The notes beneath the pieces were generated by a model. That model was not told where the DNA came from and ran no database searches. It saw only the letters and a program-made list of their open reading frames with translations. From an uncultured Bacteroidota bacterium (lineage in GTDB: Bacteria; Bacteroidota; Bacteroidia; JABEUT01), in contig CAIPDV010000029.1 of assembly GCA_903863935.1 (NCBI GenBank), positions 1 to 49,038 of the forward strand: DNA of 49,038 nucleotides. Direction: 5' to 3'. This document shows positions 84-49,038 of this stretch, piece by piece (positions within the stretch are counted from its first letter, which is position 1; the number at the start of each line of letters is the position of its first letter). Both the position numbers and the translations under genes were made by a program.

Positions 84-506
84 TTATATTTTTTCCATCG
101 CTTCCCTCAAATCCTTTGGAATATGAACCTTTTCATTTGTTGCAAAGTCGAAGAGGACAATTACATCATGTGCTTCGGCGGAGAGTTCGTTCTTTCCATT
201 CAATATGCGGTGATGCAGACCAATACTGGTGGTTTTTATAAACTCCAGGCGGACCTCAACAGTAATATTATCCGGAAAGAAAAGTGGTTTCTTAAACTGG
301 CACCCTGTAGATACAAGTATCGGTCCTATTTTATCTTTATAATAACCGCTTTCCAGCCCAGCTTTTTGCCAAAACCCGATGCGTGATGCCTGAATGAATT
401 TAAAGAACATAACGTTATTTATGTGGCCATACATATCCATTTCGCTCCAGTCTAAACGCAAGTGCAGATTTAATGGGAAGTGATGAGTGTGGGTTTCTTT
501 TTCCAT
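84..506 (-). CDS. Acyl-CoA thioesterase, 4HBT hot-dog family
   Basis: This is a 140-residue single-domain protein of the 4-hydroxybenzoyl-CoA/acyl-CoA thioesterase type, which hydrolyses acyl-CoA esters in the cytoplasm. The N-terminal half has the family signature: a DWSEMDMYGHINNV segment, in which the Asp/Gly-His-x-Asn region is the usual active-site loop, followed by the long hot-dog helix. The reading frame stays open to a TTG at 530, but that codon overlaps a TATATTTG -7 box (528-535). The ATG at 506 is therefore the likely start. The gene is divergent from the secreted-protein gene at 611. The substrate cannot be read from sequence. Confidence 0.85.
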   Translation of the reverse strand: MEKETHTHHFPLNLHLRLDWSEMDMYGHINNVMFFKFIQASRIGFWQKAGLESGYYKDKIGPILVSTGCQFKKPLFFPDNITVEVRLEFIKTTSIGLHHRILNGKNELSAEAHDVIVLFDFATNEKVHIPKDLREAMEKI

Positions 507-527
507 TTTGATTTGAGGATCTATAGG

Positions 528-535
528 CAAATATA
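528..535 (-). promoter_or_regulatory. -7 box (TATATTTG) for the thioesterase gene
   Basis: On the minus strand this matches the Bacteroidota -7 consensus TAnnTTTG exactly. Transcription would begin around 520, which rules out the upstream TTG at 530 and supports the ATG at 506. Confidence 0.55.
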
Positions 536-594
536 CGTGAGATAAAGTAACGGCAAGGTACGGAGTAATTTCAACTAACCTTTCGCAATATTCC

Positions 595-602
595 TACCTT
601 TG
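595..602 (+). promoter_or_regulatory. -7 box (TACCTTTG) for the secreted-protein pair
   Basis: This is an exact TAnnTTTG match nine bases before the first ATG at 611. The leader would be very short, so either the ATG at 611 or the in-frame ATG at 617 could be the start. Confidence 0.5.
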
Positions 603-610
603 TTAAAACA

Positions 611-1384
611 ATGCGGATGCGTAAACCCCTCCAACTATTTTTTGTTTTTCTATCCTTGAATGTTTGGGGCCAGGATTTAAAGTCGGTTGAACGGAATTTA
701 ATTCAGCATTACCACCGGATTACTGATTGGAAATGGAGTAACGCCAAAGGCGCATACGATTCACTCGAAAGCGAAAATGAAAAATTTAAAAATATTTTAT
801 TGCAGTGCACCTCAACTATTCCGGCCACTTTAACTTATCCTTTCGACAGCCTCCTGGCGGAGGTTGTTACCATTTCTACAGGGATAAATTTTACCGCCTC
901 AACTTCACCAGATAAAAATTTCAGGATTTATTCCTGGGATACCTGGGAAGGTGGAACTATGCACTTTTTCGATAATATTGTTCAATATAAAATTGGCGAT
1001 AAAGTATTTTCAACCATCCTATACAGAGATGAGGCTGAAGGAGACCCCGGTTGTTTTTTTTCAACAATTTATTCTGCCCATCTTGGTGGAAAAACATATT
1101 ATCTTGCAAAGTATATTAGTGTTCTTTCTTCGAAAGATGATTATGCAGGAATCCGGGTATTCACTATAGAAAATGGCGCATTAAATGATACTATTAGCCT
1201 CATTAAAACGACAGCCGGACTAAGAAATGATATAGGATATGGGTTTAATCATACGGGCTTAGCTTTAGAATATGACGATACGAATAAAGTCATTAAGGTT
1301 CCCGAAGTATTGGACGATGGAACTACTACAAATAAATTTGTTGAATATAAATTTACGGGTAATTATTTTGAAGAGCAAAAATAA
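611..1384 (+). CDS. Secreted protein of unknown function
   Basis: A 257-residue protein that I cannot assign to a family. It has a basic start (MRMRKP), a hydrophobic core and a likely signal-peptidase site near residues 19-21 (VWG-Q), so it is probably exported to the periplasm. The mature part is mixed alpha/beta with many aromatic residues. No catalytic motif or lipobox is visible. The next gene begins on the base after its stop codon, so the two are almost certainly co-transcribed and translationally coupled. A second ATG two codons in (617) could also be used. Confidence 0.6.
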   Translation: MRMRKPLQLFFVFLSLNVWGQDLKSVERNLIQHYHRITDWKWSNAKGAYDSLESENEKFKNILLQCTSTIPATLTYPFDSLLAEVVTISTGINFTASTSPDKNFRIYSWDTWEGGTMHFFDNIVQYKIGDKVFSTILYRDEAEGDPGCFFSTIYSAHLGGKTYYLAKYISVLSSKDDYAGIRVFTIENGALNDTISLIKTTAGLRNDIGYGFNHTGLALEYDDTNKVIKVPEVLDDGTTTNKFVEYKFTGNYFEEQK

Positions 1385-7661: not shown

Positions 7662-10600
7662 TTATTGAACCTCCACATGTCCGCTGCCATTGTAAGAATG
7701 GTAAGAACCATCGTACATAGCATCAGCTGCCACGGGACCCATTACATATTTACCTTTTGCAACCACCCTTACAAGATAATAGTAGTCTTGTTTGTTGGAT
7801 GAGATATTAGTAAAGTACGTAACGCGGTCATCCCGTATATCCAGGAAGTCCGGTTCAGATTTGTCTTTGATCCATGCAAATTCACGTTCCGGATTCAGGC
7901 GCGGGTTTTCAATTTCAAAACATGCCGGAACCACATCCGTAATTGCTACGTTATCCACTGTATTGTTATCAAGCGACTGAACACTTACTTTCACAACTAC
8001 TAATTGGTTTTGTTTGAAGTGTCCGTCACTTATTTCATCACCTTTTGTGTTGTAGAATGTCTTACGTACTTTCAGATAACTATCCTCTTCTTTGAATTTA
8101 TTTCCTGCCGGGATACCTTGTGTTTCGCAATAGTAGTAAACCTCGCCAGTTCCAACAGTGCGGACCTCCACCTTTTTATTGCTGATGTCCTGTTTCACAG
8201 TAAAGCTTACATCATTCGGCCCCATCTCGCCAACCTTAACTCCGTTGATCCAGAGTGAAGCTGAAACATTTGATTTAAGCGCATTCTGCGAAAGTTTGCC
8301 GAGCGCGATAAGTGCAAATGATTCTTCCTGTGTGGATAGCCAAGGTTCTTTTTTCAACTCTTCCGAAATGTGCTTGGCAAGAATTGGTATCTGCGGATTC
8401 TCAGGCTGCGCCTGTAACAATGCCGCAAGTGAAATAGATTCATCACGAATGTAAGAACCAAAGTTTCCGCTTAAGGAACGGGTTGCCCTTTCACCTGAAA
8501 AGCCTTCCGGTAGCAAGGTGGAGAATGCATTTTTATCTCCTGCCATTGAATAGGAAGCAGCAAGCATATACTTACTGTCGAGGGTAAGCAGTTGCTGATT
8601 TCCTTTAAAATAGTTCATCACGGATATATCCGCTTGACCCGCTAATGCCAATACAAACAGTGAATAGAATGTTTCTTCCGGTGCCACAATCCGAGTCCTT
8701 AAAACATCCTGGTAATCCCAATATGTATAGGTCTGTTCAGCACGTTCATTCAGTTGAGATTTAATGTAGGTCTGCAGGTTTGTCAGCACGGTATTATCTA
8801 CTTCAAAGCCTGACTTTTTAGCTTCGAGAAGGAAATGACATGCATAAATAGAGCACCACCAGCTGGTATATGAACCACCCGGCCAGTAAGACAATCCACC
8901 GTTATATTGTTGCGAAGCATATATCTTTTTAATTGCTTCCGAAATAATGTAGTTAGGATTGTAGCGTTGGTTGGTTTCTTTTTGTCCCAAAGCTTTCATT
9001 AAAGCTGAGTAATACAAAACAGGGAATGCAGTAGATACAGTCTGTTCCATGCATCCGTAAGGATACTCAAGCAAATCGTTCAGATGCTTTGAAAACTGTG
9101 CCAGCGGCGATTTGCTTACCATGATATACCCCTTGGTAGTACCACCAATAAAGTCAGTTGTAGAGGTTATTGGGGTGGTAGAGCCACCTTTTACAACTCC
9201 TGCATCCGATACTTTTTCAAGTGGTGTAGACGGGCGAATTGGCAGCTCTTCATGGTCGGTGAAGGTTTCGTGCAACGCTTTCACAGAAATATCCAATGTA
9301 CCTGCATCAAGCCCGGGCTGGGCAACAAGGTTATAAGTCACCGTCCGTTCTGAGTGTGCAGGTATCTCTACACTCTGAGTTGCAGGGCCAACAATTTTCA
9401 TTGGGCCACCAACTTTAATGGTAGCTTCCGCAGTAGTTTTATTGGCTGTGGTGTTACTCAGAATAACATTCAATGTATTATCATCACCAGGAGCCATAAA
9501 GCGTGGCAGCGAAGTTGAAATAACGATAGGGTCGGCAACGATCATTTTCTTTTCGTTGCTTCCATATTTATTTCCTTTATAGGCTACCGCCTCAACACGC
9601 ACCGTTCCCGAGAAATCAGGGATATGGAAGGAATAGGAACACTCTCCATTGCTGTTTGTTTTCAATGGTCCGCTCCAGAATGCAAGCGGGTGCACACGTT
9701 TTCCTTTTGCCGGTGGAAGGCGGCCCGACATTGCCTCGTCACCCGCCATGGTCGACATAAATGACAGTTCAGGCAATACCAATGGATAGAGGTCGAAAGT
9801 TTTTACTTCCAATGCCCGCATTGCATAAAAATAATCGTAAGGATCCGGTGTCTGGAAGTTTGTGATCAGCAAAGTTCCTTCATCCACGGCACCAATAGTA
9901 ACCTCGGTATTTGGCAGTGTTTTGATCTTAATGGTCTGATCGGTTTTGGAGCGTGAATTATCGGCACAGATAATTTTCACATCCAGTTTATTGTCCGGTT
10001 CATCTACTTTAATTGGTACAAATCCACGGGCAATTGTAAGCGGAATTGAATTATCGCTTAACTCGCGAATGAGTGAAGCACCCACGTATACACCGGGCAG
10101 ATCGCCTTTCGATATTGGAAGTTTAAGGCTTGCAGCCTTGTGGTCAGTTTCAATAAAGTATTTTTCAATTACTTCATTTTGTTCAACAGTAACCACAATC
10201 TTACCATCAAAAGGGCAGGTGAATAAAAGGTTTGCCGTTTCTCCCGGTTTATAATCATCCTTGTCGGCTTTTATATCAATATTTCCTTCTTTCGAAACCT
10301 GGAAGGAGTTGTATTGAGTATTACCCGAACCGTATGCATAGAAATATTCAGTAACATACGATTCACTCGTTGAGCTTGCGGCAATACGCACTTCATATTC
10401 CCCTGATTCCTGAGGCAAGAAACTCACAAATGAATTGGTGCCTGACAGATCCACATCTTTAAAGAATACCGTTTTTGTCCGCTCCTGAGATTCATAACGT
10501 GTGTATGAATAATTGTGGGTCAACACAGTTTCCCAATAATGTTTTATAATGGAAACATAGGCATGTGCATTGGTTGCATTTCCTTTTTTATCTGCCGCAA

Positions 10601-45134: not shown

Positions 45135-45213
45135 ACGATTTTTCGCCAGCTATTTATGATTGGTACTAATATCGTATTCCAACCTAAATAAACCCTATTA
45201 AATTCAGCGTTAT

Positions 45214-45221
45214 TATCTTTG
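45214..45221 (+). promoter_or_regulatory. -7 box (TATCTTTG) for the small accessory genes
   Basis: An exact TAnnTTTG match ending one base before the ATG at 45223. Transcription would start inside that codon region, which favours the next in-frame ATG at 45247. Confidence 0.5.
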
Positions 45222-45246
45222 TATGGAAACAAATATACTTATATCA

Positions 45247-45432
45247 ATGAAAACGGTAACAACAGTAACGGAATATCAGGATTGCATAGATGAGGTAAGA
45301 GGCACAAAAATTTCTATGAAGGTTATAGTAGATATGACTGATGAAGAATTGGAGAAAGCGATGGAGGAGTTGGATATGGAAGGAATAGAAGTAATCGTTG
45401 GAGACGAATACGATGAAATTAAACCCGTATGA
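45247..45432 (+). CDS. Small acidic protein of unknown function
   Basis: A 61-residue, strongly acidic protein (MKTVTTVTEYQDCIDEVRG, then an EELEKAMEELDMEG stretch). The frame is open to an ATG at 45223 (69 residues), but the -7 box at 45214-45221 almost touches it, so the ATG at 45247 is preferred. The next gene starts 30 bases after its stop and encodes a very basic protein. An acidic-basic pair could form a complex, but there is no direct evidence. Confidence 0.5.
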   Translation: MKTVTTVTEYQDCIDEVRGTKISMKVIVDMTDEELEKAMEELDMEGIEVIVGDEYDEIKPV

Positions 45433-45462
45433 TTCAGTTATAGTAAGAGAAATTACTAAGAG

Positions 45463-45702
45463 ATGAATAAACGTCGAATTATTCCATTAAGTGAAGTTTA
45501 CGAAAAGGTTGAAATAGAAAAAGCATCTAAAGTTGTAAAAGCGGATGAAGGAGGTGGTGAAGCTTTTAAGGAATGGAAAGAAAGGAGAAAAAAGAAAGAG
45601 GCGAAAATATTTACTAAAAGAAAGATGAAAAAATCCAAAAAAGTCAAAGGTTCAATTATTGGTTATGTTAATGAAACTGGTGACCCAATATTTGCGAAAT
45701 GA
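45463..45702 (+). CDS. Small Lys-rich basic protein of unknown function
   Basis: A 79-residue protein with very high Lys content (WKERRKKKEAKIFTKRK, then KMKKSKKVKG) and a short folded-looking C-terminal part (SIIGYVNETGDPIFAK). It may bind nucleic acid or the acidic protein encoded just upstream. Its stop overlaps an ATG of a further small ORF (ATGA at 45699). Confidence 0.5.
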   Translation: MNKRRIIPLSEVYEKVEIEKASKVVKADEGGGEAFKEWKERRKKKEAKIFTKRKMKKSKKVKGSIIGYVNETGDPIFAK

Positions 45703-45833
45703 AAAAGAAAATAAGAAAAATAATCCTTAATGTTAAGATATTTTTGATTCCTAAAAAAGTTAGTCGAGAAATCCTAACAAAGGCGCAGAGTTGCCTTTGG
45801 CACTCGGTGGCTCAACATATGTTTGACCAATAA
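45699..45833 (+). CDS. Doubtful 44-residue basic ORF
   Basis: It starts at an ATGA overlap with the preceding gene, which favours translational coupling, and begins MKKKIRKIILNVKIFLIPKK. However its second half lies antisense to the 3' end of a better-looking minus-strand ORF (45760-45951). Only one of the two may be real. Confidence 0.25.
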   Translation: MKKKIRKIILNVKIFLIPKKVSREILTKAQSCLWHSVAQHMFDQ

Positions 45834-45951
45834 GTTTATGATATTCTCTCATAAAAGCACCCTTCCTATTATCAGGCACATATTCCTCAAAAAGCACCTG
45901 TATTATATTTTCTAATTGTTTTATTTTTTCTTTAGATTCTTGTTCGTTCAT
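45760..45951 (-). CDS. Small helical protein of unknown function
   Basis: A 63-residue ORF on the minus strand with a coiled-coil-like head (MNEQESKEKIKQLENIIQVL), a FEEYVPDNRKGAF segment and a Pro/Gly-rich end. The composition looks like a real soluble protein. It faces the small plus-strand genes and lies upstream of a perfect hairpin (45988-46017). No family recognised. Confidence 0.45.
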   Translation of the reverse strand: MNEQESKEKIKQLENIIQVLFEEYVPDNRKGAFMREYHKLIGQTYVEPPSAKGNSAPLLGFLD

Positions 45952-45987
45952 GGTCTTTTATTTTAATTGGTTAAGACTGCGATTTTT

Positions 45988-46017
45988 GAAAATACACCAC
46001 GCATTTGGTGTATTTTC
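45988..46017. repeat. Perfect 12-bp hairpin upstream of the transposase
   Basis: GAAAATACACCA and TGGTGTATTTTC are perfect arms around the six-base loop CGCATT. It lies about 160 bases before the transposase ATG and 37 bases upstream of the minus-strand ORF. It could be an operator, an IS-end feature or a small dispersed palindrome. The next 150 bases to the transposase hold nothing else recognised. Confidence 0.7.
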
Positions 46018-46179
46018 CATTTCAAACATACGGAAAAACCCTCAAATTTCAATGAATTTATCAAATTTTATTCGCCTGAATGTCAAAATATTGTGGTAAT
46101 TTCCCAAAAATACCTCTTGTTTTTCCTTTAACTTTATTCATTCGTCGTTATGTATATTTATAATCAATCAATGTGTTAA

Positions 46180-47106
46180 ATGGAAAACAGATTTGTGTTT
46201 AAAGGCTTGAGTTCTTTTTTGGAAACTTTCCACGATGATAATTCATGCCGTAAATTTTTAGAATATCTATTATGGGAAGGAAAACCAATATGCCCTTATT
46301 GTGAACATCGGAAAAAGATTTATGCTTTTAAAAACTTGAAAACTTTCAAATGTTCGGATTGTAAACGAAATTTCACGGTAACGGTTGGAACTATCTTTCA
46401 CAGCAGTAATATCCCCATTAAAAAATGGTTTATCGCAATGTATCTTTTATCCTCCCATAAAACGGGAATATCATCCTATCAAATTGCGAAGCATTTAGAA
46501 ATAGCACAACCCAATGCATGGTATATGTTGCATAAAATAAGAAAGGTGATGGCGGGTAGTGACCAATTTAAAGATATGTTACAGGGAATAATTGAAGCGG
46601 ATGAAACTTATGTAGGAGGAAAGAATAAGAATAGACACTGGGATAAGAAATTCAAGTATAGCCAGGGGCGGTCAATAGTGGATAAAACTCCAGTGTTCGG
46701 AATTTTACAGCGTGGAGGAAAAGTTATTGTTTGGACTTTGGATTCATTGAATGGAAGCAATATGCGAAGGTTAATCAGATTGAACGTGGAACAGGGCTCA
46801 ATAATCTGTACGGATGAATATAAAGCATATAAGGGACTAAACAAATACTTTGAACATGGTATTATAGACCATAGCAGAGGAAGACATAAGGAAGGAATTT
46901 ATCACACTAATAATATTGAGGGATTCTGGAACTTCATTAAACGGGAAATAATGGGGACTTACCGCAAGGTGAATAAAGACTATTTGAATAGATATGCGAG
47001 AGAAGCGGCATACCGATACAATACCCGCAAATTATCAGATAAAGATAGGTTCATTGGGCTGTTAAAGGAATCGTTATGTGTAAAGATTACCCGTAAACAC
47101 ATTTAA
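46180..47106 (+). CDS. IS1595-family (ISXO2-like) transposase
   Basis: A 308-residue transposase that looks complete. The N-terminal zinc ribbon has Cys38, Cys41, Cys58 and Cys61. The helix-turn-helix follows (about 98-124). The catalytic core shows Asp141 in EADETYVGGK, Asp212 in CTDEYKAY, and the HTNNIEGFWNFIKR block that ends the active site. The C-terminal RYNTRKLSDKDRF segment is typical. I could not identify matching terminal inverted repeats, so it may be an IS with weak ends or a stranded copy. A 10-base direct repeat flanks it (45997-46006 and 47304-47313). Confidence 0.9.
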   Translation: MENRFVFKGLSSFLETFHDDNSCRKFLEYLLWEGKPICPYCEHRKKIYAFKNLKTFKCSDCKRNFTVTVGTIFHSSNIPIKKWFIAMYLLSSHKTGISSYQIAKHLEIAQPNAWYMLHKIRKVMAGSDQFKDMLQGIIEADETYVGGKNKNRHWDKKFKYSQGRSIVDKTPVFGILQRGGKVIVWTLDSLNGSNMRRLIRLNVEQGSIICTDEYKAYKGLNKYFEHGIIDHSRGRHKEGIYHTNNIEGFWNFIKREIMGTYRKVNKDYLNRYAREAAYRYNTRKLSDKDRFIGLLKESLCVKITRKHI

Positions 47107-47366
47107 TACAACGCTCATTTTTCTTACCGAAATTTTACCTATATTCGTACTTGCAAAAATACTTGCGTGAACTCTGTTAGGCTCTAAACGTCGAAATTTA
47201 ATCCTAATACACAGTGAACAAGTTACCGCTCTGCGCATGCGTGGGAGTAATTTGTCTGTGTATAGGTTTTCGACGACCTTGAGCCTGCAAGTTACATACA
47301 ATCCCACGCATTTATTTACTGAATAAATAATACTCTTGGGGATTGTGGGTGTAAATAAATACGCTC
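47107..47366. other. Structured non-coding region after the transposase
   Basis: 260 bases with no ORF. It contains a tandem ACTTGC pair (about 47150-47166), the long imperfect palindrome at about 47170-47293, an ATGCGTGGGA/TCCCACGCAT inverted pair (47237-47246 and 47302-47311), and a GCATTTATTTAC/GTAAATAAATAC stem (47308-47319 and 47351-47362) just before the next gene. Confidence 0.6.
47170..47293. repeat. Long imperfect palindrome (about 124 bases)
   Basis: Matching arm segments, outer to inner: AACT/AGTT, GGCTC/GAGCC, CGTCGAAA (47189-47196) with TTTCGACG (47268-47275), CTAATACACAG (47204-47214) with CTGTGTATAG (47256-47265; one bulge), and ACAAGTTAC (47218-47226) with GTAATTTGT (47247-47255; one G-T). 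The centre contains the 8-base palindrome CGCATGCG (47234-47241). The alternation of paired blocks and bulges is like a folded RNA or single-stranded DNA. Confidence 0.75.
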
Positions 47367-47993
47367 ATGAAAAAAGTATCGTTATTTCTCTGTGTATTCT
47401 TATTTTCATTTGTAGCATCTTCTCAGGAAATAAGAAAAAATACAAAAAATGTAAATTGTAATATTGTAGGAAAAGGAAAGAAAATAATTAATTCCTATCA
47501 GACAGATTATATTACAGCGTTCCGAATGGGGGCTGATACACTTCTATTGGAAGTTATAGTCAATAATAATGGAGGAAGGATTGCAAGGATTATTGTTCGA
47601 TATGAAAAGACTAATTTGTTTTATCTCTATACCTCTTTAAGTGATAATATGGTTACCGATGGGGCTGAAATTGTATCGCATAATTATGAAGAGGTAATAG
47701 AAGATGAAGAAGATGGTACAATTGTTTCAACTAATTCACAATACAGCAGCGGTGTAAAAATCGCCAAAATGGATACTTCATACTACAAATTGTTGCGATT
47801 ATCCGTAACAACAAAAGCAGGAGATATTGAAACGACCAATTACACTTACACAACTCCAGTTGTTAAGAAAACTCAACCTAAGAAAACTGCTCAGGTTAAA
47901 AGCGATTCCAAGCCTTTAACAGATGAAGAATTGAGAAGGAAATTGCGTGTTCCTCCATATCAGAATGGTAAAGATACTGCGAAAAAAAGATAA
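47367..47993 (+). CDS. Secreted protein of unknown function
   Basis: A 208-residue protein with a clear signal peptide (MKKVSLFLCVFLFSFVASS, cleaved near residue 19). The mature part is mostly beta-strand-like with acidic and Ser/Thr-rich stretches (EEVIEDEEDGTIVS). A Lys/Pro-rich linker leads to a short basic end. No domain recognised. It lies next to the transposase region and may be part of the accessory cargo. Confidence 0.6.
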   Translation: MKKVSLFLCVFLFSFVASSQEIRKNTKNVNCNIVGKGKKIINSYQTDYITAFRMGADTLLLEVIVNNNGGRIARIIVRYEKTNLFYLYTSLSDNMVTDGAEIVSHNYEEVIEDEEDGTIVSTNSQYSSGVKIAKMDTSYYKLLRLSVTTKAGDIETTNYTYTTPVVKKTQPKKTAQVKSDSKPLTDEELRRKLRVPPYQNGKDTAKKR

Positions 47994-47996
47994 CTG

Positions 47997-48018
47997 TTAG
48001 AATCCTTTGGGGTTCTAA
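47997..48018. terminator. Shared hairpin between convergent genes
   Basis: TTAGAATCC and GGGTTCTAA pair over nine positions (one T-G) around TTTG. It lies four bases after the plus-strand stop and overlaps the stop of the minus-strand gene at 48015. A bidirectional terminator is likely, though the T tract is short. Confidence 0.5.
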
Positions 48019-48200
48019 GACCTTTCTATTGCTTTGCCTAAAATGTAAAAAAAGCCTCCTATCATAACAGAAGTTATAATTATTTTTCCCATTTCTCGTA
48101 TGGCTTCATTTCCTACTGCTTCAACTGAAACAGAGTTATAGGGATTGGCCAATGTAATTTTCATGGCTTGAGGATTGGGGTTTGGTACTAATTGCGTCAT
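48015..48200 (-). CDS. Small single-helix membrane protein
   Basis: A 61-residue protein. A Pro/Asn-rich head (MTQLVPNPNPQAMKI) is followed by SVSVEAVGNEAIREMG and one membrane helix (about 40-57, ITSVMIGGFFYILGKAI) with a short charged end. Its composition favours a real gene. No family is recognised; it belongs to the accessory stretch around the transposase. Confidence 0.5.
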   Translation of the reverse strand: MTQLVPNPNPQAMKITLANPYNSVSVEAVGNEAIREMGKIIITSVMIGGFFYILGKAIERS

Positions 48201-48442
48201 AATGTTGATTAATGGTTAATGTACAGTATAATAACACCAATATACGCATTTTATTGTGTTTTTCCGAAACCTATAACAGGATTAACTATTTTTGTCTGAT
48301 GACTTCCTTTAAACGCCTGATAATAACCGAATAAATATTTCAGGGTTTAAATACGATATTAATACCTTATGATTTTACTCATCAAGAAAAGTGAAGTACG
48401 TCACCTTGAGCTTGAATTAGCCCCTAACCAGGATTTTATTTA
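48201..48442. other. Intergenic stretch with an orphan -7 box
   Basis: About 240 AT-rich bases. A TATTTTTG box (48287-48294) points to the right, but only very short ORFs follow (one of 25 codons at 48369). Nothing else recognised. Confidence 0.35.
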
Positions 48443-48883: not shown

Positions 48884-48909
48884 AATCGTTTTGTGTATTA
48901 AAATTGTAA

Positions 48910-48917
48910 CAAATATA
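48910..48917 (-). promoter_or_regulatory. -7 box (TATATTTG) for the single-domain usp gene
   Basis: An exact TAnnTTTG match on the minus strand that places transcription start between the longer frame opening and the ATG at 48883, supporting that ATG. The remaining bases to 49038 show no feature. Confidence 0.5.
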
Positions 48918-49038
48918 TATAATTCCAACAGAGATTTCTGTATTGACTCATAAATCCCCGGAAACATATAGAGCAAATAAAATACAGAATATTAAGTTTA
49001 AATTACTGAATACATGCATGTTTCCCACATGACAAAAG

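Follow-up and report, generated by a model that had tools for sequence, protein, structure and literature searches.

Riboswitches and attenuators, in which a terminator and an antiterminator are exchanged, are a familiar general kind of leader RNA. In this study, an RNA resembling them was examined in a stretch of 49,038 nucleotides (hereafter, the window) from an uncultured Bacteroidota bacterium (contig CAIPDV010000029.1, assembly GCA_903863935.1). An initial annotation, made from the letters alone, had noted a long folded palindrome at 47170-47293 behind an IS1595 transposase and had suggested a structured RNA, a single-stranded DNA (ssDNA) recombination site, or a remnant of paired insertion sequence (IS) ends. 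We found that the palindrome is the rod of a larger RNA, approximately 47161-47366, which abuts the ATG at 47367. As judged from sequence comparisons, this RNA is probably a two-state cis-regulatory leader of about 190-215 nt, riboswitch- or attenuator-like in character. It shares with those systems the position in a 5' leader, an aptamer-like rod with a pseudoknot, a strand with two partners, and a U-run after the alternative hairpin. Unlike the known riboswitches, it has no match in Rfam 15 and precedes diverse genes for exported proteins, several of them on transposons.

The palindrome, with its paired blocks and bulges, was present where it had been described. The predicted fold of 47150-47310 had an energy of -54.4 kcal/mol, compared with -33.8 ± 3.4 kcal/mol in 200 shuffled sequences (z = -5.98; 0/200 as good), and z was -6.33 when the stretch was extended up to the ATG (47150-47369). 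The location given in the annotation was thus correct, whereas the extent was too short, as conservation starts at about 47161 and reaches the ATG. Alternative pairings with the leader of the next gene, also foreseen there, were observed: GCGTGGG (47239-47245) can pair with CCCACGC (47303-47309) without a mismatch, an inverted repeat CGCATTTATTTAC / GTAAATAAATACG was detected near the palindrome, and the GCATTTATTTAC stem was found as well.

Relatives of the RNA were sought with sequence patterns and a covariance model. A first pattern was too narrow and hit 1 of 395 genomes of the phylum, the window's own; four viral contigs that it returned were judged unrelated by reading. With the first four copies as its basis, another pattern recovered 10 copies from 7 of the 11 genus genomes; other families of the class contributed 7 more, a further hit (L241, in genome G671) having been dropped as a chance match. 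The covariance model R1, built from 14 sequences including that of the window and yielding rough E-values, found 23 copies in 9 of the 11 genus genomes. It also matched 50 of the 395 Bacteroidota genomes sampled, 7 of these outside the class; the figure of 50 is a lower bound because six candidates were scored per genome. Parabacteroides distasonis was found by a separate search to carry the RNA at two loci, and one locus, 5' of a lipocalin-family gene, was observed in Bacteroides finegoldii. Of the further copies for which a search had been proposed, none was detected in the window's own genome, either by sequence search or with R1, whereas relatives were found in other genomes. All counts on 58 sequences below exclude L253, which is the same place as the window, and L298, a partial match.

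The homology between leaders begins about 30 nt before helix P1, continues to the ATG and then ends. For example, the leaders of G001C153 and G004C9 show 89% identity across 256 bases, and beyond the ATG they have nothing in common. On viral contigs, a second pattern gave 114 stretches, mostly chance matches. When R1 was applied as a decoy check to 100 contigs (96 of the 114 and the 4 from the first pattern), 98 showed no match and two matched strongly; these, L179 (13247-13437) and L142 (3163-3392), are IMG/VR contigs and were read as true members. In both, the RNA stands 5' of a signal-peptide-like protein. Searches of the leader by blastn gave no useful match among plasmids and only short matches within the family. 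Three such short matches were examined: two were one coding stretch, which we take to be methylmalonyl-CoA mutase, and the third was another chance match.

Compensatory changes at homologous loci, which the initial annotation had named as a check, support the structured RNA. When 14 members were aligned by sequence alone, 83.2% of the cells paired, compared with 72.4% in shuffled and 36-45% in slid controls, and changes on both sides were observed in 29 of 53 pairs (P2, 7/7; P3, 7/9). Among 59 distinct sequences aligned by R1 (alignment A6, which leans to the rod structure of the model), both-side changes occurred in 39 of 45 pairs, and one P3 pair showed all four Watson-Crick types at nearly equal frequency. 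We consider this almost certainly to be a real RNA family.

For helices outside R1 (A:M partly excepted), pairing within each sequence was compared with that obtained when strands were swapped between sequences, a control that leaves relatedness in and therefore overstates significance to a degree not known. The M:T, A:M and AGGY:RCCU helices were tested on the 44 of 58 sequences not used for R1. M:T had -19.5 kcal/mol against -15.6 when swapped, and -7.6 against -5.1 outside its constant 7-bp core, and the rod pairing A:M had -19.3 against -16.9; in each case 0/100 swaps were as good. AGGY:RCCU was present in 35 of 44 sequences against 21.6 expected (0/500 swaps as good); its fixed-column count on A6 (over the four columns, 26, 30, 35 and 46 of the 58 sequences paired) is poor because the flank is gapped. 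The pseudoknot PKa averaged 5.64 bp against 3.91 in 22 near-ATG sequences that likewise had no part in R1 (0/300), and P7 had at least 4 bp in all 21 new sequences having PKa (0/500). In the first 17 members, P1 and PKa were equalled in 0/2000 swaps, although the search pattern had partly dictated the cores of these members. Relatedness is probably not the whole cause of these results, because the compensated pairs varied (in PKa, for instance, GUUCC:GGAAC, AACCC:GGGUU, GCCCC:GGGGC and UUCCC:GGGAA). Taken together, the comparisons show a conserved predicted rod, P1-P6; a predicted loop-to-strand pseudoknot, P7/PKa, just 5' of the start codon in most gene-abutting members; and a strand M with two conserved and, as predicted, mutually exclusive partners, A in the rod or T in the alternative fold. 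The M:T pairing noticed in the window is therefore itself conserved across relatives.

The pairings fall into two states. M:T and AGGY:RCCU are compatible in one, and A:M, P1, P2, P3 and PKa in the other; AGGY:RCCU requires an open P3. In 43 of 58 sequences, a run of four or more U comes after T, and M:T therefore resembles an intrinsic terminator, in which a stem is directly followed by a U-run. M:T was longest in copies preceding SusC-type receptor genes. A conserved aptamer-like fold was found in the 5' leader, as in riboswitches, and mutually exclusive pairings are backed by covariation, whereas the link to gene output is a prediction. The leader and the exported-protein gene, which begins where the leader ends, are expected to share a transcript. 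In the rod state, P1 and PKa would keep T occupied and the gene would be read; in the alternative state, the M:T hairpin, mostly with the U-run behind it, would terminate transcription. In copies with a weak U-run, that of the window included, the alternative state might instead act on the start codon, with P7 and the hairpin adjacent to the AUG altering its accessibility. For the window copy a translational output is the likelier one, because its U-run is broken, its P1 is short, and P7, PKa and the hairpin next to the AUG are there. That the leader acts in cis seems likely, and that it works by exchange of M's partners seems somewhat more likely than not.

The genes downstream were compared by a crude signal-peptide rule. 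The first open reading frame (ORF) was called exported in 35 of 53 cases, whereas among the remaining ORFs at these loci the rule called 30 of 133 (Fisher p 3.7e-8). Pfam assigned two of five first ORFs to TonB receptor plugs, one to a PKD-domain protein and one to a PLD-like protein; the fifth had no family. Six copies (L284, L286, L288, L291, L293 and L297) lie 5' of SusC-like TonB-receptor genes and have a strong U-run at the end and no pseudoknot. A divergent regulator-like gene stands upstream of several receptor-type copies; at L284, a divergent neighbour encodes a helix-turn-helix protein according to Pfam.

Besides the lean of A6 and the relatedness left in the swap controls, several observations weigh against a two-state leader. 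The run of four U is missing in 15 of 58 sequences, and the window copy has a broken U-run (AUUUAUUUAC) and a P1 of 5 bp. Eighteen of the 53 first ORFs were not called exported, and the downstream proteins have no common function beyond export. Furthermore, receptor-type copies (e.g., L284, L286, L288, L290 and L293) lack PKa, and their gene lies about 200-700 nt away.

This last distance, the U-run after P1/T in 43 of 58 sequences and a promoter-like box upstream would also suit an independent small RNA that has a promoter and terminator of its own and acts in trans, with the gene reached by read-through. The box, TAnnTTTG, which is presumably the Bacteroidota -7 promoter element, was found upstream in 31 of 58 loci against a mean of 2.1 in shuffles, at distances from P1 that fall into two groups. 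Such a small RNA is unlikely, as the first ORF begins within 35 nt of the RNA in 33 of 58 loci and PKa and P7 extend to the start-codon region. We therefore retain the cis-regulatory leader as the preferred reading.

The mobility of the window copy was traced to the element around it. The upstream gene was confirmed as an IS1595 transposase, with matches above the curated cut-offs to PF12762 (133 bits, E 9.9e-39), to the zinc ribbon PF12760 (38.5 bits) and to NF033547 (190 bits; cut-off 75). The gene lies in an IS1595-family transposon of 3.2 kb (45162-48366) with inverted ends and a perfect 8-bp target duplication, TTATGATT, on both sides; 8 bp is the duplication length of this family. The transposon contains small ORFs, the transposase, the RNA, an ORF of 208 aa and a small reverse ORF, and the RNA would move as part of its cargo. 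The 208-aa protein had no relatives in phages or in the viral contigs searched. In its transposase domain, inverted ends and duplication the element is like IS1595 transposons with passenger genes; it departs from them in having a structured leader RNA at the head of its cargo, as seen in 4 of 11 delimited elements.

A related element, L088 (on the same contig as L015), has a transposase 63% identical to that of the window. Its 20-base ends are perfect, it is flanked by an 8-bp duplication, and the same RNA stands in it ahead of an unrelated gene. In the genus, 13 more IS1595 loci were examined, and 9 of them were delimited with a perfect 8-bp duplication; such ends were not obtained for L092, L100, L101 and L102. 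The nine (L093-L099, L103 and L104) have cargo genes between matched ends and, with the window and L088, are a sizeable set of cargo transposons. The leader RNA was found in 4 of these 11 (the window, L088, L093 and L094). Mobility is thus common across the family without being a requirement, as there is an IS1595 transposase within 1.5 kb of the RNA for 5 of the 23 copies from the genus and for 4 of the 35 from elsewhere. A divergent IS1595 transposase adjoins the RNA outside the genus too (L274, L275, L277 and L278).

Integron attC sites are long imperfect palindromes between mobile genes, with end boxes RYYYAAC / GTTRRRY. The sharp end of leader homology at the ATG, with unrelated ORFs beyond, and the often mobile neighbourhood might therefore recall a mobile regulatory cassette or ssDNA recombination site of that kind, shuttling ORFs between elements. 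We regard this as very improbable, since the conserved block takes in upstream sequence and halts at the start codon, each of ten loci scanned has a single copy, and the pseudoknot reaches the start-codon region. On reading of alignments A5 and A6, the attC boxes were not at the ends of the element; moreover, how the window copy moves is accounted for by the ends and target duplication of its IS1595 element.

It is extremely improbable that the palindrome is just a long intrinsic terminator serving the transposase gene, or a remnant of paired IS ends. The palindrome does begin about 60 nt 3' of the transposase stop codon, but the true ends of the transposon, with their perfect duplication, lie 2 kb upstream and 1 kb downstream. 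In addition, the same RNA occurs beside other genes, in L093 on the strand opposite to the transposase, and shows extensive covariation and a pseudoknot. A retron-like noncoding RNA template, which would likewise be a long folded RNA closed by a terminal helix, has a next to negligible likelihood: in L282 the RNA stands 428 nt before a retron-type reverse transcriptase (PADLOC; 114-1073, minus strand), but the window has none, its neighbours being the transposase and the 208-aa protein without family assignment, none was noticed elsewhere by reading ORF starts (16 of 58 loci; first downstream ORF, 53 of 58) rather than by model scan, and the fold differs, with one rod instead of separate msr and msd hairpins and a gene start abutting the element.

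With the competing explanations weighed, the two-state leader belongs to a known general kind, while neither this RNA family nor its fold nor its connection with transposon cargo appears to be listed. In the 22 loci scanned against Rfam 15, the RNA had no match that reached the gathering score, only weak sub-threshold chance matches, and no description of it was found in the titles and abstract openings returned by full-text literature searches, subscription papers and preprints lying outside the scope. Tentatively, and somewhat short of probable, the RNA may represent an orphan riboswitch-like class widespread in Bacteroidota, in which M switches its partner, giving either a pseudoknotted rod or a terminator-like hairpin, to control scattered exported proteins (TonB-dependent receptors, lipoproteins and secreted proteins), and which is carried between genomes as a ready-made switch of transposon cargo. 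If so, transposon cargo can come with its own RNA switch. An RNA of nearly 200 nt with a pseudoknot, two supported folds and no Rfam 15 family is an open target for identification of its signal, and culturable carriers such as P. distasonis exist.

Table 1. Coordinates of the leader RNA and of the transposon carrying it in the window
Feature	Position	Strand	Remarks
Left 8-bp target duplication TTATGATT	45154-45161	.	
Left inverted end of IS1595-family transposon	45162-45184	+	17 of first 20 bases match right end
IS1595-family transposase, 308 aa	46180-47106	+	
Leader RNA part under model R1 (P1 rod to PKa)	47161-47345	+	
P1 5' strand TGCGT	47164-47168	+	partner 47306-47310
P2 5' strand GGCTC	47180-47184	+	partner 47281-47285
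P3 5' strand	47189-47196	+	partner 47268-47275
P4 5' strand TACACAG	47208-47214	+	partner 47256-47262; window fold
Strand A, rod partner of M	47218-47226	+	pairs with 47247-47255
Central strand M	47238-47254	+	pairs with A (rod) or T (alternative: TGCGTGGGA:TCCCACGCA plus GTAATTTG:CAAGTTAC)
AGGT, alternative-fold helix	47264-47267	+	partner ACCT 47276-47279
Strand T	47288-47310	+	followed by broken U-run AUUUAUUUAC
PKa 5' strand CAATCCC	47299-47305	+	partner 47339-47345 in P7 loop
P7 hairpin, 47330-47335 with 47347-47352	47330-47352	+	loop contains PKa 3' strand
Hairpin 47347-47353 / 47360-47366	47347-47366	+	touches start codon; 5' strand common with P7
Cargo protein, 208 aa, signal-peptide-like start	47367-47993	+	no family above curated cut-off
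Right inverted end of transposon	48344-48366	-	
Right 8-bp target duplication TTATGATT	48367-48374	.	

Several minor features were also observed. A small ORF with an EYD.IKP-like end lies 5' of the transposase in the three closest elements (window, 45223-45432; L088, 7575-7763; L089, 5952-6140) and looks like a conserved passenger or regulator. In L088, a tRNA gene with a two-base anticodon call (9083-9156, minus strand) stands between the transposase and the RNA. L025 (1037-1193) contains a hairpin unit, about 79 bases long and repeated twice with GGGGATTGTGGGT, which is apparently no kin of the leader. Finally, positions 48893-48976 of the window, just 5' of the start of a universal stress protein, are 89% alike to G000:C80:152932-153015 (28 codons).
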